Origin: Gemmatimonadota bacterium
GTDB lineage: Bacteria > Gemmatimonadota > Gemmatimonadetes > Longimicrobiales > Gaopeijiaceae
Assembly (NCBI GenBank): GCA_015664885.1
Contig: DQPL01000019.1
Location: forward strand, 1 to 64,000
Length of the DNA stretch: 64,000 nucleotides
Direction of reading: 5' to 3'
Positions 9,492 to 19,055 of this stretch are shown here, in pieces. Both the position numbers and the translations under genes were made by a program. The notes below the pieces were generated by a model. That model did not search any database and had not been told where the DNA came from. It was given only the letters and a program-made list of their open reading frames with translations. How positions within the stretch are numbered: position 1 is the stretch's first letter; each line of letters opens with the position of its first letter.

Positions 9492-10550
9492 CTGAAGATC
9501 GCGAATGCGAAGCGCAGTTCCGCGACGCACCACGTCAAGCCCGATCGCGAAAAGATCGAGCAATGGAATCGCATCCTGAAGCCCTATTGGGGCGCGGATA
9601 CCAGGCGCAGCGTCACACAGTTGCTCACGTCCGCGATCCCGTTCGTGATTCTGTGGTATTCGATGCTGCGCAGCCTCGAGTACAGCTATTGGCTGACGCT
9701 CGCGCTCGCGGTCCCGACCGCAGGCTTCCTGATCCGCCTCTTCATCATCCAGCACGACTGCGGACACGGAAACTTCTTCAAGTCGCGGCGCGTGAGGGAT
9801 TGGGTCGGGCGGGCGATCGGGACGCTGCTGCTGACACCGTACGACTACTGGCGCAAGGCACATGCGTACCACCACGCGCACTCGGGCGATCTCGACTTCC
9901 GCGGCTTCGGGGACGTCGACACGATCACAGTGGATGAGTATTACGCGTTGACCCGGCTACAGAGATTCCAGTACCGAATCTATCGGCACCCGCTGGTGCT
10001 CTTCGGTGTGGGGCCCGCGTACCAGTTCCTGATCAAGCACCGCTACCCGACGGACGCACCAAGGGAGTGGACGCAGGCGTGGCGAAGCGTCTGGTGGACC
10101 AACGTGGCGATCGCAGGAGTCGTCGCCGTGATGTGGCTCACCATCGGGATCGAAAACTTCCTACTGGTTCAACTTCCAGTAACGCTGATCGGCTCCACGC
10201 TAGGCGTCTGGATGTTCTACGTGCAGCACCAATTCGAAGAGACGTACTGGCACTGGCATGACGGCTGGGACTACTACGACGCCTCGCTGCTGGGGAGCTC
10301 CTACCTCGTGCTGCCCGCACCCTTACAGTGGATTACGGGCAACATCGGCGTGCATCACGTGCACCACATGAGTGCGCGAATTCCGAACTACAAGTTGCAG
10401 CAAGCGCACGACGAGAACGAAGAGTTTCATGTAGTCACCAAGGTGCGATTCCGCGATACACTGAAGCTGATCAACCTCTCATTGTGGGACGAAGAGAATC
10501 AGCAATTGATCCGATTCCGGGACCTCAAGAAGCTCCGGAAGGCCGCGTAG
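9492..10550 (+). CDS. Membrane fatty acid desaturase, probable CTG start
   Basis: The protein introduces double bonds into membrane acyl chains with a di-iron centre. The three histidine boxes are HDCGH, HAYHH and HHVHH, with hydrophobic pairs between them. The first in-frame ATG is 9621, but family-like sequence (KPYWGADTRRSVTQLLTSA) lies upstream in the same frame, with no ATG, GTG or earlier stop. A perfect AGGAGG at 9480-9485 sits six bases before CTG at 9492, which I therefore take as the start (352 residues). It lies 28 bases after the acylase gene and 10 before lutA, so it is likely co-transcribed. Confidence 0.9.
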   Translation: MKIANAKRSSATHHVKPDREKIEQWNRILKPYWGADTRRSVTQLLTSAIPFVILWYSMLRSLEYSYWLTLALAVPTAGFLIRLFIIQHDCGHGNFFKSRRVRDWVGRAIGTLLLTPYDYWRKAHAYHHAHSGDLDFRGFGDVDTITVDEYYALTRLQRFQYRIYRHPLVLFGVGPAYQFLIKHRYPTDAPREWTQAWRSVWWTNVAIAGVVAVMWLTIGIENFLLVQLPVTLIGSTLGVWMFYVQHQFEETYWHWHDGWDYYDASLLGSSYLVLPAPLQWITGNIGVHHVHHMSARIPNYKLQQAHDENEEFHVVTKVRFRDTLKLINLSLWDEENQQLIRFRDLKKLRKAA

Positions 10551-10560
10551 GCTCACTCGC

Positions 10561-11280
10561 ATGGCGATGCGAGTCTCTCTATTCGCCACCTGTCTGTGCG
10601 ATCAGTTCTACGCTGAGGCCTGCGCAGACGCCGTCCTGCTGTTGCGCCACCTGGGTGTCGACGTAGACGTGCCGAGAGGGCAGACATGCTGCGGGCAGCC
10701 CGCCTACAACGCCGGCAGGCCGGCGGAAGCCCGAGACATGGCTGCGCATACGATGCACGTCTTCGAGGACGCCGAATACGTGGTGCTGCCTTCGGGCAGC
10801 TGCGCGGGCATGATCCGATGCTTCTACGGGGAGATTAGCGGCGTGGACACCGAACGCGCAGAATCGCTCGCGCGCCGGACGTATGAGCTGTCACAGTTCC
10901 TGCGCCAGGTGTTGAACGTCGAAACGCTCGGGCCGGGCCTGGAGGGACGTCGAGTCGCGTATCATCACGGCTGTCATGCGCTGCGCGAGCTCGGCGTGAA
11001 AGACGAGCCGCTCGCGCTGCTCGCTGGCTGTGCCGCTGAGGTTGTGGAGTGGGAGGCCGATGAGGAGTGCTGTGGCTTTGGCGGTCTCTTCAGCGCGAAG
11101 CTTCCCGAAGTATCCGCGGCCATGGCCGACCGAAAGCTCGACACGCTGCCCGACGTGGACTTCGTGGCCTCGTCCGACGGAGGATGCTTGCTACAGCTTT
11201 CGGGGCGCGCAAAGAAGCGGCGCACCGGCCCTCCGTTCGTGCACCTCGCGAGCGCGCTATGGCGGGGCGTGGCCCGATGA
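10561..11280 (+). CDS. lutA: Lactate utilization protein A (Fe-S oxidoreductase subunit)
   Basis: LutA is one of three proteins that oxidise L-lactate to pyruvate in place of a flavin dehydrogenase. At 239 residues it has the family length and two cysteine-rich CCG motifs: TCCGQPAYN with the upstream FATCLCDQF, and HHGCHALRELGV paired with EECCGFGGLFS. These bind an iron-sulfur cluster of the heterodisulfide-reductase type. It is followed by lutB with an ATGA overlap and then lutC, the classic order. The preceding fatty acid desaturase ends only 10 bases upstream. Confidence 0.95.
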   Translation: MAMRVSLFATCLCDQFYAEACADAVLLLRHLGVDVDVPRGQTCCGQPAYNAGRPAEARDMAAHTMHVFEDAEYVVLPSGSCAGMIRCFYGEISGVDTERAESLARRTYELSQFLRQVLNVETLGPGLEGRRVAYHHGCHALRELGVKDEPLALLAGCAAEVVEWEADEECCGFGGLFSAKLPEVSAAMADRKLDTLPDVDFVASSDGGCLLQLSGRAKKRRTGPPFVHLASALWRGVAR

Positions 11281-12671
11281 GCTTCACGGGACCCGGGAAT
11301 TACCGGGAGGAGGCAGCGAAGACGATTCGCGACAAGCCGGAGGTGCGCACGTCGATTACTGCGGCTACGCGCGCGTTCGACGCGCACCGTGTTCACGCCT
11401 GGGGGCAGATCGATGCGGACCGGTGGCGCGACTGGGCTCGAGATGTGAAGTCGCACGTGCTGGGGCACCTGGACGAATATCTGGAGCAGGCCGAAGAACA
11501 ACTCACCGCCAACGGAGCCCGCGTACACTGGGCGGAAACCGCAGAAGACGCGCTAGCGATACTGGGCGACATCGTGCGCGAGCACGGCGTCGAGAGCGCC
11601 GTGAAGGCCAAGAGCATGCTCAGCGAGGAGCTGGGGGTGAATGCGCACCTCGAGAGCCTCGGCGTGCACGTACGTGAGACCGACCTCGGCGAGTACATCA
11701 TCCAACTGTTGGGTCAGCCGCCGAGCCACATCGTGGGGCCCGCGATTCACCTGAGCGTGGACGACTGCCGAAGACTCTTCCACGAACGTTTGGGTACGCC
11801 GCTGGACGCGGAACCGGACGAGCTCGCGGGAGCGGCACGGGATGCGCTCCGCGCCGAGTTCCTCGCCGCCGATTTGGGGATCTCCGGCGGCAACTTCCTG
11901 GCGGCGGACACCGGGACGGTCGCGCTCATAGAGAACGAGGGCAATATCCGCCTCTCGACATCGCTTCCCCGCATTCACGTGGCCTGCGTGGGCATCGAGA
12001 AGCTGGTGCCGAAGCTCGAGGACGTGTCCGGGTTTCTCCAGCTCACGGCGCGCGCCGCGACGGGGCAGCCGATCGGGAACTTCGTCTCGCTCATCCAGGG
12101 ACCGCGGAAGAACGACGAGGTCGACGGTCCCGAAGAGGTGCACGTCGTGCTCGTGGACAACGGGCGTACCAAGTTGCTCGCCGACGACGCGGCATGGGAG
12201 GCGCTCAGGTGCGTGCGCTGCGGAGCATGTCTCAACATCTGCCCGGTCTACAGGCAAACGGGAGGCCACGCATACGGCTGGACGTATTCCGGCCCCATCG
12301 GAGCCATCATCGCTCCGGCCATGCTCGGCCTGGAGGAGGCGATGCCTCTGCCTTATGCGTCCAGCCTGTGCGGAGCCTGCACCGACGTCTGCCCGGTACG
12401 AATCCCGATTCCCGAGTTGCTCGTGCACTGGAGGGAGAAGGCCGTCGAGCAGGGTCTCACGCCCATGACCGAGACCATGGGCCTCAAGGCATACGCGAAG
12501 CTCGCGCAGAAGCCCGATCTGTTCGCCGCCGCGGGCTCGGTGCTGCGTCACGTACCGCTCGAGCTCGGCGGCCGTGCGTTGCCGGTTCTGGCCGGGTGGA
12601 TGCAGGAGCGGTCGGCGCCAAAGTCGAGTAAGAAGAGCTTCCTGCAAATGTGGAAGGAAGGCATCGAGTGA
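11277..12671 (+). CDS. lutB: Lactate utilization protein B (4Fe-4S iron-sulfur protein)
   Basis: LutB is the central subunit of the LutABC lactate oxidation complex. The N-terminal two thirds form the LUD domain (GGNFLAADTGTVALIENEGN). Two ferredoxin-type cluster motifs follow: CVRCGACLNICPVYRQTGGH and CGACTDVCPVRIPIPELL, close to residues 305-380. The 464-residue length is normal. Start at 11277 by the ATGA overlap with lutA; an ATG 18 bases earlier is less likely. Its stop overlaps the lutC start as GTGA. Confidence 0.95.
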   Translation: MSFTGPGNYREEAAKTIRDKPEVRTSITAATRAFDAHRVHAWGQIDADRWRDWARDVKSHVLGHLDEYLEQAEEQLTANGARVHWAETAEDALAILGDIVREHGVESAVKAKSMLSEELGVNAHLESLGVHVRETDLGEYIIQLLGQPPSHIVGPAIHLSVDDCRRLFHERLGTPLDAEPDELAGAARDALRAEFLAADLGISGGNFLAADTGTVALIENEGNIRLSTSLPRIHVACVGIEKLVPKLEDVSGFLQLTARAATGQPIGNFVSLIQGPRKNDEVDGPEEVHVVLVDNGRTKLLADDAAWEALRCVRCGACLNICPVYRQTGGHAYGWTYSGPIGAIIAPAMLGLEEAMPLPYASSLCGACTDVCPVRIPIPELLVHWREKAVEQGLTPMTETMGLKAYAKLAQKPDLFAAAGSVLRHVPLELGGRALPVLAGWMQERSAPKSSKKSFLQMWKEGIE

Positions 12672-13255
12672 GCGCTCGGGATCGAATTCTCGGTCGAGTG
12701 CGGGAGGCGCTGAGCGAGCGGACTGCGGTGGAGCACCCCGGATCGTTCGAGGGGTGGCGACCAGCGGCTCCGGCGCTTCCGGTAGACGGCCTAGCACATC
12801 TGCTGGAAGCAGCGGGTGGTGAAATCGTACGGCAGCCCAACGTCGACGCCGCCGCGGCGTGGCTCGCGTCCTTCTGCGCTGATTTTGGGAGCAGCGCGGT
12901 GGGCGAAACCGTGCCTGAGCCTCTGAGACCTCCGCTTCCCGCAGGCGCCCCCGACACCGCCCCCCTCGGCGTGTCTCTCGCCCGAGGAGCGGTCGCCGAG
13001 ACGGGCTCACTCATCATGGACGCCCGCGATGGACGACGCGCCCAACTGCTCGTGCCGACGCACGTCGTGTTCGTTCGCACCAGGGATGTCTACGTAACGC
13101 TGCGGGAGGCGCTCATCGAGCTGGCTGACGACCTACCGTCCGCGATCGGCTTCCATTCAGGTCCGTCCAAGTCCGCAGACATCGGGCAGATTCTGGTGAA
13201 GGGGGTGCACGGGCCTGGCCGGCTGGTGGCGGTGCTAATGGGAGACGGAGACTAG
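12668..13255 (+). CDS. lutC: Lactate utilization protein C (LUD domain)
   Basis: This is the smallest LutABC subunit, a single LUD domain of 195 residues. Family segments are AVAETGSLIMD and HSGPSKSADIGQILVKGVHG near the C-terminus. The GTG start at 12668 overlaps the lutB stop (GTGA), so all three lut genes are coupled. No LldR/LutR-type regulator or lactate permease is present nearby. The residues between about 25 and 75 are Ala/Pro-rich and poorly conserved, as usual for this family. Confidence 0.93.
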   Translation: MSARDRILGRVREALSERTAVEHPGSFEGWRPAAPALPVDGLAHLLEAAGGEIVRQPNVDAAAAWLASFCADFGSSAVGETVPEPLRPPLPAGAPDTAPLGVSLARGAVAETGSLIMDARDGRRAQLLVPTHVVFVRTRDVYVTLREALIELADDLPSAIGFHSGPSKSADIGQILVKGVHGPGRLVAVLMGDGD

Positions 13256-13263
13256 CCATTTCA

Positions 13264-13962
13264 ATGATTCGCAGGCGTGCGTCGGTGTGTGCCATAGTGC
13301 TCGGCTTCCCGCTGCTTTCCTGCTCCCGCACGCCGGAGCACCCAAGGCCCGTCGCTTCTGAGCCCTCCACAACGCGAGCGATTCTACTGGACCCCACCCA
13401 TCCCGGGTGGTCCGAGCCAGCGCCGGACACATACCGCGCGCACTTCGAGACCACGCGGGGCACTTTCGCCGTCGAGATCGTGCGCGCGTGGGCCCCGCTC
13501 GGCGCCGACCGCTTCTACAACCTCATCCGGCACGGGTACTACGACGACGTGCGTTTCCACAGGGCTGTTCCGGGCTTCATCACCCAGTGGGGTGTCTCGG
13601 GTGATCCGGAAGTGAGCGCGGTCTGGTACGAGCGAGGCATGGCGGACGACTCGGTGGCGGTTAGCAACACGCGCGGCAGGATCGCGTTCGCGTTCACCGA
13701 ACCAGGCACACGCTCCACGCAGGTCTTCATCAGCATGGGCGCCAACGCTCGTCTCGATACGCAGGGCTTCGCCCCATTCGGGCGGGTCGTGGAAGGCATG
13801 GACAGCGTGGTAGACTCGATCTACACCGGGTACGGCGAGAATTCGGGCGGCGGCGTGCGCCGCGGAGACCAGAGCCGGATCGTGTCGGAGGGGAACGCGT
13901 ATCTCGATGCGGAGTTCCCTGAGTTGGACCGGCTCATACGCGTGACGATCGAGCGGCACTAG
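13264..13962 (+). CDS. Cyclophilin-type peptidyl-prolyl isomerase, lipoprotein
   Basis: The 232-residue product has a lipobox (FPLLSC, Cys about 20) and should act in the periplasm on folding proteins, catalysing cis-trans isomerisation of proline bonds. The cyclophilin core runs from about residue 58: RFYNLIRHGYYDDVRFHRAVPGFITQWG holds the catalytic Arg of FHR, and STQVFISMGANARLDTQGFAPFG is the second conserved stretch. It lies 8 bases after lutC and may be read through from that operon. Confidence 0.92.
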   Translation: MIRRRASVCAIVLGFPLLSCSRTPEHPRPVASEPSTTRAILLDPTHPGWSEPAPDTYRAHFETTRGTFAVEIVRAWAPLGADRFYNLIRHGYYDDVRFHRAVPGFITQWGVSGDPEVSAVWYERGMADDSVAVSNTRGRIAFAFTEPGTRSTQVFISMGANARLDTQGFAPFGRVVEGMDSVVDSIYTGYGENSGGGVRRGDQSRIVSEGNAYLDAEFPELDRLIRVTIERH

Positions 13963-14017: not shown

Positions 14018-15433
14018 ATGTTGCGCGCTCGCGGTGGCGCCGCAAAGCGGCCTGCCCCCTTCCGATCACCGTTCCAAAGTCACGTGACCGAATCCGGATC
14101 GAAATACCAGCTGCACCGAGTCCTCGGTATTCGGGACGGTATGGCGGTGACCGTCGGTATCGTGATCGGCGCGGGCATTCTGCGCACGCCCGGTATCATC
14201 GCGGGGCACCTCGGCAACCCTTGGATCATTCTCGCGGCCTGGTTCTTCGGCGGTGTGGTGGTGGCGCTCTCCACGCTGGTGCTCGCCGAGATGGCCGCCG
14301 CGCTGCCCGAGGCCGGAGGCAAGTACGTCTATGCTCGCCACGCGTGGGGCGACACCATGGGCTTCCTCGCCGGCTGGTCCGAGTTACTCGTGAGCCGCGG
14401 ATTCTCGGGAGCCGCCAAGGCGGTCGCGATCGCCGAATACATCCGAATTCTGACCGGGGATCGTGGCTCGATCCGGTTGTTCGCGCTCGCCGTGTGCGTC
14501 GCATTCTTCTTCCTGCACACGCGGGGGCTCGAGGCGAGCACGAAATTTCAGAACGTCACCACCGCAATCAAGGTCCTGGTGGTAATCGCGATCGCAGGTG
14601 CTGGCCTCTGGGCCGGCGACCTCGTCGGCTTCCAGCCGTCGGTCACCAGTGCGTCCGGTCCGACTGCCGGCCTGCTGGGCTTTGCGCTCGCGTATCAGTC
14701 GATTTCGTTCGCGTACTACGGTTGGGAAGACGCCGCTAAGATGGCCGCGGAGGTCAAGAATCCGGGCAGCGCTCTGCCCAAAATTCTGGTCGGTGGTTCG
14801 CTCGCGGTGATGGTGCTCTACCTATTGATGAACGTCGCTTTCCTCTCGGCGCTCACCCCGGAGGAAATGGCCGGCTCCGATCTGGTCGCGCGGGACGCCA
14901 TCGCGGCAGTGTTCGGGGGGACCGCGGGCACGGTGGTCGTCGTAGCGAGTCTGCTCATCCTGGTGAGCAGCTTGAACGTGAACTTCTTGGGACTCCCGCG
15001 CGTGGCGTATGGTCTCTCGCAGCACGGGCTTGCGCCGGAAGCGTTCTCGAAGGTCGACGCTCAGGGGACGCCCAGAAACGCTCTGTACTTCATCTCACTG
15101 TGGATCGCACTGCTCGCACTTTCGGGCGCATTCGAACTGCTCATCCGATTCATGATGACGGTCGCGATCACCGTGGATACGATGGTGCTCATGGGCTACT
15201 TCAAGCTTCGTCGCTCGCAGCCGGACCTCGAGCGCCCCTTCACCATGCCGGGCCACCCGTTGCTGCCGGCGATCACGATCGCGCTCTACATCGGCATCCT
15301 CGCGATTCTCATCTGGACCCAATGGCAGTTGGCGCTGGGCGCGGGCGCCATGATCGGCGCCATTCTTCTGGCAGGCTGGATTACTACGCGAAGAGCCACA
15401 GGCGCAGCTGCCGATACGACTCACGGACGGTAA
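14018..15433 (+). CDS. APC-superfamily amino acid permease
   Basis: A 471-residue integral membrane protein with about twelve hydrophobic segments. The first helix has the APC signature VGIVIGAGILRTPG, where the broken helix binds the amino acid carboxylate; a conserved FAYYGWEDAAKMAAEVKNPG segment follows in the middle. It should import an amino acid by proton symport. Start is uncertain: ATG at 14018 adds a basic, unconserved leader of 22 residues, and GTG at 14084 fits the family better. The next gene starts two bases after its stop, so the substrate may feed the TPP-dependent enzyme downstream. Confidence 0.88.
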   Translation: MLRARGGAAKRPAPFRSPFQSHVTESGSKYQLHRVLGIRDGMAVTVGIVIGAGILRTPGIIAGHLGNPWIILAAWFFGGVVVALSTLVLAEMAAALPEAGGKYVYARHAWGDTMGFLAGWSELLVSRGFSGAAKAVAIAEYIRILTGDRGSIRLFALAVCVAFFFLHTRGLEASTKFQNVTTAIKVLVVIAIAGAGLWAGDLVGFQPSVTSASGPTAGLLGFALAYQSISFAYYGWEDAAKMAAEVKNPGSALPKILVGGSLAVMVLYLLMNVAFLSALTPEEMAGSDLVARDAIAAVFGGTAGTVVVVASLLILVSSLNVNFLGLPRVAYGLSQHGLAPEAFSKVDAQGTPRNALYFISLWIALLALSGAFELLIRFMMTVAITVDTMVLMGYFKLRRSQPDLERPFTMPGHPLLPAITIALYIGILAILIWTQWQLALGAGAMIGAILLAGWITTRRATGAAADTTHGR

Positions 15434-15435
15434 CT

Positions 15436-15975
15436 TTGGCCACACTGAACGAGACGCTGCGCACGTTGGCGGCGGCGCGCATCACGCACGTCGTGGGGCT
15501 GCCTGACAATACGTCCGCGCCACTCTTCGACGCGCTTCAAAGCCACCCCTCGGTGCGACTGGTGACCGTCACGCGAGAGGGCGAGGCGTTCGCCATAGCC
15601 TCGGGCTTGTGGCTCGGGGGTGCACGGCCGCTCGTGGTCATCCAGAACACCGGTCTGCTCGAGTCGGGCGACAGCATCCGCGGCACGGCGGTGCGCATGG
15701 CGGCACCCATCCCGATCCTGATCACGGGCCGGGGCTATGGGAAAATGGCCGACGCCGGCCTCACACCGGCCGAGCCACGCACCAGCGAGCTCATGACCCG
15801 CGTGGACATCGACTCGACCGCACTGCTCACCGAGCCGACGCTCGATGCCTGGGGCGTACCGTTCGAACGGTGCCAGGGGGAGCAGAATCCGGCCGCCGCG
15901 CTCGCGCGGGCTATCGAGTCGGCTCGATCGGAGCAGCGCCCGACGGCGGTGATTGTGGCACGAGCGCTGAACTGA
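15436..15975 (+). CDS. TPP-dependent decarboxylase alpha subunit, ComD/phosphonopyruvate decarboxylase-like
   Basis: This 179-residue protein matches the N-terminal (PYR) half of thiamine-diphosphate decarboxylases in the sulfopyruvate/phosphonopyruvate branch. Conserved features are GLPDNTSAPLFDAL, the catalytic-type Glu in VTREGEAFAIASG, and VVIQNTGLLESGDSI. The start is a TTG two bases after the permease stop with a GGACGG-like site. Together with the next gene it forms a split enzyme that should decarboxylate a 2-oxo acid. The true substrate is unknown; no phosphonate or coenzyme M genes are nearby. Confidence 0.82.
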   Translation: MATLNETLRTLAAARITHVVGLPDNTSAPLFDALQSHPSVRLVTVTREGEAFAIASGLWLGGARPLVVIQNTGLLESGDSIRGTAVRMAAPIPILITGRGYGKMADAGLTPAEPRTSELMTRVDIDSTALLTEPTLDAWGVPFERCQGEQNPAAALARAIESARSEQRPTAVIVARALN

Positions 15976-16006
15976 TGCCCGGTCCTCCACTTCCCCAGCC
16001 ACGCTC

Positions 16007-16606
16007 ATGCTAACACGCGCACAACTGCTCGAACCGCTGGCACGTCACCGAAGCAACGAGGTCGTCGTCACGACCATGAGCGTCACTCGCGCCTGGGGCC
16101 GACTCTCCGATCATGACCTCGACTTCGCCTCAACGGACAGCGCAATGGGCCACGCGGCCGACCTGGCGTTGGGGATCGCGCTCGCGCGCCCAGACCGAAC
16201 CGTGGTCTGCTTGAACGGGGACGGAAGCATGCTCATGACGCTCGGGACCTTGGCGACCGCCGCCGGGACGGCTGCGACGAACTTCGTGCTCATCGTGGTC
16301 GACAACGGGGGCTACGAGATCACGGGCAACCAGCCGGTCGCGGCGGCCGGGTCCCTCGATTTCGCGGCCATGGCTCACGCCGCGGGATTCCCACGAGCCT
16401 TCAGCTTCGAGGACCCTCGGGACTACGTCGAGGCCATACCAGACCTCCTCACCACTCCCGGCCCGACGCTTGTGCACGTGGCCGTCGAGCCCGGAACGGA
16501 GGGTCCGATCAGTCGCACCGAGAGCGAGCCCGCGCGTTACCTGCGCGTATCCCTGGCGGAGTGGTCGAGGTCCTTCCGCGATGCGCTCGCCGCGGGACCT
16601 CGCTAG
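16007..16606 (+). CDS. TPP-dependent decarboxylase beta subunit, ComE-like
   Basis: The 199-residue product is the C-terminal (PP) half of the split TPP enzyme. The diphosphate-binding motif is NGDGSMLMTLG with VVDNGGYEITG about 30 residues later, the GDG-X(~27)-N signature for magnesium and TPP. It begins 31 bases after the alpha subunit gene. The pair resembles ComDE, and the upstream amino acid permease hints at a 2-oxo acid made by transamination, which is inference. Confidence 0.85.
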   Translation: MLTRAQLLEPLARHRSNEVVVTTMSVTRAWGRLSDHDLDFASTDSAMGHAADLALGIALARPDRTVVCLNGDGSMLMTLGTLATAAGTAATNFVLIVVDNGGYEITGNQPVAAAGSLDFAAMAHAAGFPRAFSFEDPRDYVEAIPDLLTTPGPTLVHVAVEPGTEGPISRTESEPARYLRVSLAEWSRSFRDALAAGPR

Positions 16607-17390: not shown

Positions 17391-19055
17391 CTAGTTCCCG
17401 TGTTCGCGCAGCCAGCGGCGCAGATCCCCTACGTCCAACCTTCCGTTCCGGTTGCCTTCGCTGTCCACATAGGCGAGTTCGAGCTCGGACAGCGGCTCGG
17501 AGTTCGGCTCGAGGAAGAACTGCACGATCTGTTGCTCAGTGACTACCAGTTGCGTCGATAGCGTAATACGGGCCTGCCCGCCCTGCACGAAGATCGAGTG
17601 GAACACCACCTCCGTCGCGCGGCCGTTGTTGAGGCGTGTACTCGGAGAGGTGATGCTGCTGAGCTGGTTCGGCACCTCCCCAAGACCCCATGCATCACCG
17701 GCTTCCCCGCGATTGCCTCCCTCGAAGCTGTTCCTCACCAACCCGTCGTTGTCATCCTGCTCGAGCAAGGAGAGGAAATACGGGAGGCCACTGGTGGGGT
17801 CTGGTCTGGTCGCGGCACCCAGGTCCTGGTGGTAGATGAGCACGCCGCCCGCCGGGAGGCCATGGTCGAATCCGATTTGGGCTCGGTATTCCACCAGGAG
17901 GAATTCGCTACCGCTCTGGTCGAGATGGATGCGCAACGCGTCGCCTGAAGTCTGCACCGGATCGAGCACGTACTCCTGATTACTGACGGGTTCGAGTCCA
18001 ACCTCCGTGAAGTCCAACCAACCGAGCACGTTCTTGTTGCGCACACTCATGTGCGACGGCCCGTAGGGAAGGCGATCTCCCCCGACCGGACCACATCCCC
18101 ACGAACCCGCAGCCATGAGCGCCCAACACCCGAGCACCCAGCGCCGGCCGGCGGCTCCCCCGCTGGCCGTCGGATGGTAAAAGTCGGGTAGCCCGAGCAC
18201 ATGTCCATACTCGTGCGCGATGACGTTCGCGCTCTGCACGTTGAGACCTTCGCAGTCGGTCACTCCTTGCACGATGTAGCCGTCGACCTGAACAAAACCA
18301 CCGTTGGGGCGAGCATCGTTGGTGGTGAACGGCTGGCCGTCGTTCTGGGCAGCGATGCCCCAGCGGTGCGGCCAGATCGACGGTCCCGGGCATGAGCCCG
18401 GGATCTCGAGAAACTCGAACGTCATGGCATCGACGTAGCCGTCGTCGTCCCCGCTGTTGGGCACGTTGTCAGGGCCGTCGTTGTCGTAGAGGCTGAAGTC
18501 GGTGTCCACGTCCGCGAGCTCGAGCGCCTCCAGGAAGTAAGGCGCCATATCCGAGTCGGAACCGAGGCCGTTGCCCGAACCCACGACGACCTCCAGCGTT
18601 CGCGAGGTGCGCACCCACGGAAGCACATCCCCGATCAAGTTGAACTTTCCCCGAGACATCTCTGCGTAAGCCTCGGTGACAGTCCCGTACTCGGAAGGAC
18701 CATCGAAGAGCGACGCCTGGATCATGTCCCGGGTGATGTGCGGCTCCTGCGAATCGGAGAACAGCGCCGGCAGAACCAGGAGGCGGTGGGTCCCGCCAAT
18801 ATCTCGCACCGGCTCGACCTGCCCCTGAGCGTTCAAGCGAAAGAGGCCGTTCGGCAGCTCATAGGCACCCCGGGCCTGCGCGACGCGAGCGTAGTAGCTC
18901 TGCGGGAGCGTCAGCCCGCGGACCTCGGCGAGCGCCTCGATGTCCTGGGCTGAGAGAGACTCTGCCGACCATGGCGTCGCATGGCTGATGAGCAACAGGG
19001 CGATCGCCAACCGGGTGAGCGGCGCCCACCAACGCTCGTCGCGGCTCGCGCTCAT
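17391..19055 (-). CDS. Secreted M6-type zinc metalloprotease with C-terminal dockerin-like motif
   Basis: A 554-residue exported protease. After a signal region (about residues 15-36) the catalytic domain carries HEYGHVLGLPDFYH, the zinc motif HExxHxxGxxD of immune-inhibitor-A-like (M6) enzymes. Asp-rich turns such as DNDGPDNVPNSGDDDGYVDA probably bind calcium. The last 25 residues, DSEGNRNGRLDVGDLRRWL, resemble one dockerin/EF-hand repeat, which here more likely serves calcium binding or cell-surface sorting than cellulosome assembly. ATG 19055 overlaps the upstream stop by ATGA, so it is coupled to the lipoprotein gene. Confidence 0.88.
   Translation of the reverse strand: MSASRDERWWAPLTRLAIALLLISHATPWSAESLSAQDIEALAEVRGLTLPQSYYARVAQARGAYELPNGLFRLNAQGQVEPVRDIGGTHRLLVLPALFSDSQEPHITRDMIQASLFDGPSEYGTVTEAYAEMSRGKFNLIGDVLPWVRTSRTLEVVVGSGNGLGSDSDMAPYFLEALELADVDTDFSLYDNDGPDNVPNSGDDDGYVDAMTFEFLEIPGSCPGPSIWPHRWGIAAQNDGQPFTTNDARPNGGFVQVDGYIVQGVTDCEGLNVQSANVIAHEYGHVLGLPDFYHPTASGGAAGRRWVLGCWALMAAGSWGCGPVGGDRLPYGPSHMSVRNKNVLGWLDFTEVGLEPVSNQEYVLDPVQTSGDALRIHLDQSGSEFLLVEYRAQIGFDHGLPAGGVLIYHQDLGAATRPDPTSGLPYFLSLLEQDDNDGLVRNSFEGGNRGEAGDAWGLGEVPNQLSSITSPSTRLNNGRATEVVFHSIFVQGGQARITLSTQLVVTEQQIVQFFLEPNSEPLSELELAYVDSEGNRNGRLDVGDLRRWLREHGN

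Follow-up and report, generated by a model that had tools for sequence, protein, structure and literature searches.

Several decarboxylases that depend on thiamine diphosphate (ThDP) are encoded as two separate subunits (ComDE, RhiEF, LumKL and AzcBC), and their substrates are very different (sulfopyruvate, phosphonopyruvate, a heterocyclic acid and an alpha-imino acid, respectively); many other split enzymes are annotated by analogy. RhiEF is described as the split phosphonopyruvate decarboxylase of Bacillus subtilis ATCC 6633 (PDB 9iz3/9iz4; PMC12141560). LumK/LumL is a split pair that forms a 1:1 complex and acts as a ThDP heterocycle decarboxylase in riboflavin catabolism (PMC12746152). 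Here we describe a putative split ThDP decarboxylase encoded at positions 15436 to 16606 of a 64,000-nucleotide stretch (the “window”) of contig DQPL01000019.1 from a Gemmatimonadota bacterium (assembly GCA_015664885.1). Split enzymes of this type being already known, what is new is an uncharacterised subfamily and its linkage to lut genes and an amino acid permease. With a probability of about 55%, the pair represents a new subfamily of split decarboxylases that act on a 2-oxo acid and are tied to the use of lactate or other 2-hydroxy acids and of amino acids. In an open library without most subscription journals, no paper was found on either the subfamily or the lut-permease linkage; PMC4103992 concerns a COG0028 ThDP enzyme induced by acetone and shows no tie to the window pair.

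Domains, motifs and predicted fold of the split pair

The initial annotation had placed two half-subunits of a ThDP enzyme 2 and 31 bases behind an amino acid permease, and coordinates and Pfam domains both agree with this. The LAT-like permease of the APC superfamily (14018 to 15433, forward strand; 471 residues; PF13520, 5e-48, 164.5 bits against a cut-off of 27) ends 2 bases before the TTG start of the N half (15436 to 15975, forward strand; 179 residues; PYR domain, PF02776, 3.1e-10), which is separated by 31 bases from the C half (16007 to 16606, forward strand; 199 residues; PP domain, PF02775, 8.7e-22); all three matches exceed their Pfam cut-offs. A GDG-x26-N motif begins at residue 71 of the C half. 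In ThDP enzymes, a Glu of the PYR domain and the GDG-N motif have catalytic roles. Glu48 was invariant in all 49 N halves aligned (52 had been collected and three partial sequences were dropped), and GDG-x24-30-N was found in 81/81 C halves of the family. AlphaFold2 models of the two halves (mean predicted local distance difference test scores of 90.3 for N and 88.9 for C) were compared with the PDB using Foldseek, which returned RhiE (9iz4_A) as the best match for N and RhiF (9iz3_B) for C, with AzcBC (9u8q) next-best in both cases. With PYR and PP domains on separate genes, the expected motifs and this predicted fold, the two genes look like members of the split ThDP decarboxylase superfamily.

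Within that superfamily, both halves fell far short of the ComD/ComE models. The top NCBIfam model of the N half was TIGR03845 (ComD), at 65.6 bits against a cut-off of 147.95; for the C half the order was Ppd (118.4 bits), PRK06163 (111.1 bits) and TIGR03846 (ComE; 108 bits against a cut-off of 221.5). As a positive control, annotated ComD and ComE from a Leisingera plasmid scored 149.4 and 243 bits and passed both cut-offs. Scores against the Ppd model TIGR03297 (N, 45.9 bits; C, 118.4 bits; cut-off 312.5) come from a model built on a fused protein and are unfair to separate halves. The family also has its own conserved residues. Asp24 occupies, in 49/49 N halves, the position after Pro23 at which ComD, RhiE and both AepY sequences have Cys, a criterion that is a feature of this alignment and has no published source. 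Together with Glu76, Gly78, Asp79, Arg82 and Trp139, it forms a set of near-invariant N-half residues that replace those common to ComD, RhiE and AepY; in the C half Trp30, His49, Asn70 and Glu104 likewise replace residues common to the references.

Clade and distribution

In a tree built from 11 references (a single ComE among them) and 49 of the 81 C halves, the family C halves formed one clade (support 98/98) apart from ComE and Ppd. Confidence in the clade is moderate, given the small number of references, their long branches and the choice of members by similarity to the query; with that qualification, the pair appears to be a real and conserved subfamily of its own. The initial annotation had proposed a ComDE-like split decarboxylase acting on another substrate: by the tests made, the pair belongs to neither ComDE nor Ppd, and the other substrate is probable rather than established.

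Among the related loci (the best 80 of 148 found), an N-half homologue adjoins the C half in 51, so the pairing is not a matter of chance. Records bearing the pair carry labels of about nine phyla: Gemmatimonadota, Acidobacteriota, Verrucomicrobiota, Chloroflexota, Armatimonadota/Abditibacteriota, Aminicenantes, Poribacteria, Bacteroidota and Deltaproteobacteria/Myxococcota. Most of these records are metagenome bins, so an individual label could be in error. The nearest relatives of the window pair are labelled Gemmatimonadota, and a C half of the window type (at least 62% identity) was found in 13 of 200 Gemmatimonadota genomes, all 13 in the window's own family.

The source genome carries a second split ThDP pair outside the window (positions 1456 to 2564 of locus L008, contig C62 of genome G000, ∼82.7 to 83.8 kb). 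It scored 113 and 146.1 bits against the ComD and ComE models, closer to ComDE and still under the cut-offs, and it is this pair, not that of the window, with which Leisingera ComE groups (97/97). In Leisingera (L100, 5498 to 7667), the gene immediately after comDE codes for an alpha-hydroxy acid oxidase, and upstream lie TRAP transporter and dehydrogenase genes; a 2-hydroxy-acid route using ComDE is possible there.

Linkage to lutABC, lactate permease and amino acid permease

Just upstream of the permease and on the same strand lies lutABC (10561 to 13255), which was absent from the initial annotation. The run consists of a LutA-like cysteine-rich (CCG) protein (10561 to 11280; PF02754), whose place ahead of the pair is conserved among related loci, a LutB-like L-lactate oxidation iron-sulfur protein (11268 to 12671) and a LutC-like LUD-domain protein (12650 to 13255; PF02589). 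With three linked genes and a LutB over the cut-off of TIGR00273 (460.2 bits; cut-off 444.8), the run qualifies as LutABC.

Either lutB or the permease, or both, occurred in 22 of the 80 related loci, all labelled Gemmatimonadota (15 with both; lutB only in L026, L027 and L032; permease only in L011, L013, L015 and L025). Among the four permease-only loci, lutC is visible at the locus edge in L013 and L015, and a candidate counterpart region of L025 has lutB further upstream. L026 and L027 have the order lutABC-N-C without the permease, the N half directly following lutC. In the 200 Gemmatimonadota genomes, LutB was found in 51 overall, including 11 of the 13 that carry the pair; in nine of these 11 it lies upstream of the pair on the same strand, the end of LutB being 1.3 to 9.3 kb from the start of the C half, and in the other two (G181 and G196) LutB and the pair are on separate contigs. 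Genes are inserted between lut and the pair in G164 and G189 (distances of 5.4 and 9.3 kb). An L-lactate permease (PF02652) was present in 11/11 genomes with LutB and the pair compared with 6/23 genomes of the family with LutB only (P = 8.7 × 10−5, a value that ignores kinship), a contrast first seen in 21 chosen genomes and then checked on the 200.

In locus L113 (G131:C5; 6147 to 6686 and 6695 to 7285), lutABC is followed by a decayed, in-frame pair, of which the C half (42% identity) is without GDG-N and the N half carries Asp where the catalytic Glu would be; this is likely to be a pseudoenzyme or a decaying copy.

The linkage of permease and pair that the initial annotation had singled out recurs in 19/80 loci, all labelled Gemmatimonadota, yet it is not constant: L026 and L027 are without the permease, and those of the 80 loci that come from outside Gemmatimonadota showed no homologue of it close to the pair. 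The permease was thereby weakened as a candidate for a constant partner. Nor was an APC permease homologue found near lut loci of pair-less genomes (0/6). The permease link is thus clade-specific and dispensable; lutABC is the more constant partner in Gemmatimonadota and its link to the pair the stronger. The closest solved chain to the permease was 6f2g_A (4.8e-45), from BasC, an alanine-serine-cysteine exchanger; no substrate-level NCBIfam model was over its cut-off among the 25 matches listed.

Sulfonate and phosphonate routes

In bacteria, ComDE can also take part in the breakdown of sulfonates, by way of Xsc. The absence of coenzyme M and phosphonate genes noted earlier for this stretch holds genome-wide for two markers, with no match to phosphoenolpyruvate (PEP) mutase (PF13714) or ComA (PF02679) anywhere in the source genome. 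The conclusion drawn from that absence, a new substrate, was incomplete, because ComDE may feed Xsc and the source genome carries an Xsc (TIGR03457, 745 bits; cut-off 676.4). A sulfonate route looked promising once this Xsc had been found, and was rejected on account of its taurine-like neighborhood and its lack of co-occurrence with the pair. On the same strand, the Xsc gene has as neighbors a class III aminotransferase, an unassigned gene and an AGCS symporter, an arrangement expected for taurine use (locus L096, G000:C91, 148 to 6617, minus strand). At a threshold of E = 1e-150, Xsc was found in 15 of the 200 Gemmatimonadota genomes and in one of the 13 with the pair, as well as in one of 35 genomes behind related loci (a set that partly overlaps the 13). 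The phosphonate route was likewise rejected, with no PEP mutase match in the source genome and TIGR02320 over its cut-off in 4 of the 35 genomes with the pair. Since the genome's own Xsc is taurine-like, 12 of 13 pair-bearing genomes are without Xsc, and the source genome has neither PEP mutase nor ComA, sulfopyruvate and phosphonopyruvate are unlikely substrates.

Proposed function and alternative explanations

In one non-oxidative ThDP decarboxylase of the split RhiEF/ComDE type, the N half would be the alpha (PYR) subunit and the C half the beta (PP) subunit. In Gemmatimonadota, LutABC would turn L-lactate, or a 2-hydroxy acid close to it, into a 2-oxo acid, the LAT-like permease would take up an amino acid of the small neutral kind, and the pair would most likely decarboxylate the LutABC product or the deaminated amino acid to an aldehyde. 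What the data show is the order of the genes, their families and motifs, the predicted fold, the clade and the co-occurrence; we infer the decarboxylation, the 2-oxo-acid class of substrate and the flow from LutABC to the pair. Several observations weigh against this proposal. Known split relatives also use substrates other than 2-oxo acids (LumKL and, by entry title, AzcBC), and the Poribacterial N and C halves are encoded apart. The lactate-permease contrast was noticed post hoc, and by genus it becomes 6/6 versus 2/6 (P = 0.06); association of the pair with LutB within 51 genomes of the window's own family was not significant (P = 0.17). Two genomes (G166 and G187) carry the pair with neither LutB nor lactate permease, and loci of other phyla have the pair without lut matches and with varied neighbors. 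Adjacency alone is weak evidence because gene order in the clade is generally well kept: in 18 loci the pair is syntenic with an M6-peptidase-like gene of the opposite strand, and the conservation of a small LTXXQ gene beside the pair is a further caution against over-reading synteny.

This last point leads to the explanation that the pair is unrelated in function to its neighbors and that the linkage reflects slow change of gene order in one family. Unrelated flanking genes are indeed conserved too, and the nonsignificant association with LutB fits this account. However, lut and the pair stay close without the permease (L026 and L027) and despite insertions (G164 and G189), and even the decayed pair of G131 still follows lutC, so that we regard the explanation as doubtful while giving it some weight. 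A special case of the proposed 2-oxo-acid decarboxylase is a split pyruvate decarboxylase or carboligase, turning pyruvate from LutABC or from imported alanine, serine or cysteine into acetaldehyde or acetolactate. It would fit the co-occurrence with LutB and lactate permease, the similarity of the permease to 6f2g (BasC) and the acetate-coenzyme A (CoA) ligase cluster that adjoins the Poribacterial N half in 6/6 regions (2/6 scored over cut-off). Such support is circumstantial, and acetate-CoA ligase is a common gene; the unit has no aldehyde dehydrogenase, neighbors differ in other phyla, and we consider this narrower version unlikely. Lactate permease, LutABC, a permease of the small-amino-acid type and acetate-CoA ligase, taken together, hint at conversion of pyruvate to acetaldehyde, which is a guess.

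The two substrates of the closest described enzymes fare worse. A bacterial sulfopyruvate decarboxylase in sulfonate catabolism (cysteate or sulfolactate to sulfopyruvate to sulfoacetaldehyde, then Xsc) would agree with TIGR03845 as the best NCBIfam match of the N half and with an Xsc over cut-off in the source genome. Yet both halves are under the ComD/ComE cut-offs that plasmid ComDE passes, Xsc, the sulfoacetaldehyde exit examined, occurs in 1/13 and 1/35 genomes, the genome's own copy sits in a taurine-like cluster, and it is L008 that joins Leisingera ComE; we hold this reading to be improbable. A split, RhiEF-like phosphonopyruvate decarboxylase in phosphonate synthesis is more improbable still: the slightly higher score of the C half to Ppd than to ComE and the RhiEF-like predicted fold speak for it, whereas the source genome has no match to the PEP mutase family, TIGR02320 is found in 4/35 genomes, and motif residues of Ppd and RhiE differ in the family.

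If the 2-oxo-acid proposal is true, a two-gene decarboxylase of 2-oxo acids, linked to the use of lactate, exists in bacteria. As the clade has its own invariant residues, a stable neighborhood and members across many phyla, the substrate of one enzyme could re-annotate many genes, a large set now called sulfopyruvate or phosphonopyruvate decarboxylase-like. A bolder and quite unlikely extension is that the pair founds a widespread further substrate class, a two-gene decarboxylase of pyruvate or of a 2-oxo acid derived from lactate in records of about nine phyla, which in Gemmatimonadota would convert lactate and imported small amino acids to acetaldehyde, bypassing pyruvate dehydrogenase.

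Neighboring genes in the window and in other genomes

On the same strand, the permease is preceded by a desaturase gene, lutA, lutB, lutC and a cyclophilin gene; successive genes overlap or are separated by no more than 55 bases. The cyclophilin-type peptidyl-prolyl isomerase (13264 to 13962, forward strand; PF00160), which lies within the lut-permease-pair gene run, is probably not part of the pathway, and the DesA-like fatty acid desaturase upstream of lutA (9621 to 10550, forward strand; PF00487; NF052548, 354 bits, cut-off 500) is probably unrelated to it. On the opposite strand, positions 17391 to 19055 hold a large gene; the single copy of it that was scanned, in L030, is M6-peptidase-like. 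Three copies of the gene that precedes lutA in some loci were scanned and matched no Pfam family. A scan for sigma-70 promoters and terminators yielded about the same as shuffled sequence.

Related split pairs adjoin an aminotransferase in Ruegeria and have flavin adenine dinucleotide (FAD) oxidoreductases and a semialdehyde dehydrogenase nearby in Bradyrhizobium. The Ruegeria aminotransferase, the Leisingera alpha-hydroxy acid oxidase and the Poribacterial acetate-CoA ligase speak for the 2-oxo-acid proposal. In Poribacteria (L061 to L088 and L130 to L135), the C half has no N half nearby, and N is a single copy elsewhere; N was present in 7/7 genomes tested and adjoins C only in L060. In 6/6 fetched regions the Poribacterial N adjoins a gene belonging to one cluster; the two members of this cluster that were scored passed the cut-off for acetate-CoA ligase. 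C has a DUF4861 protein and, in many cases, an aldo-keto reductase as neighbors. Selected genes scanned in other phyla comprised a succinate-CoA ligase (L036), DHDPS-like aldolases (L035 and L050), a GltP-like symporter (L039), a UxuA-like cluster at six loci (two members scanned), an enolase-type sugar-acid dehydratase-like protein (L059), a gamma-glutamyltranspeptidase cluster (L028, L029 and L040; one scanned) and, in Chloroflexota, an adenosine monophosphate (AMP)-forming ligase; no shared substrate clue was found among these selected neighbors.

Comparison with known systems

RhiEF, the best fold match of both models, resembles the window pair in having two genes, PYR and PP halves and ThDP, but identity in structural alignments is 21 to 27%, PC[S] of RhiEF is PD in the window N half, TGGQ is TGNQ in the C half, and no phosphonate gene (PEP mutase) was found in the source genome. 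ComDE shares the split alpha/beta layout, with TIGR03845 ranking first for N and TIGR03846 third for C, whereas the window pair is far below both cut-offs, in a separate clade, without ComA, and with an Xsc that is neither linked nor co-occurring. The pair fails the tests made for ComDE on all features examined and those for Ppd on PEP mutase and the Cys position. AzcB/AzcC from Streptomyces (PDB 9u8q) is also a split ThDP decarboxylase, at ∼20 to 26% identity, whose substrate is taken from the entry title only (thiamine pyrophosphate [TPP]-dependent alpha-imino acid decarboxylase), a literature search having turned up no paper on it, and LumKL is likewise a split ThDP pair that decarboxylates its substrate, in its case a heterocyclic acid. 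LutABC of the window, with a LutB that passes TIGR00273, corresponds to the known L-lactate oxidation system, but here it is followed by a permease and a split decarboxylase, both of which are missing from six lut loci of pair-less relatives.

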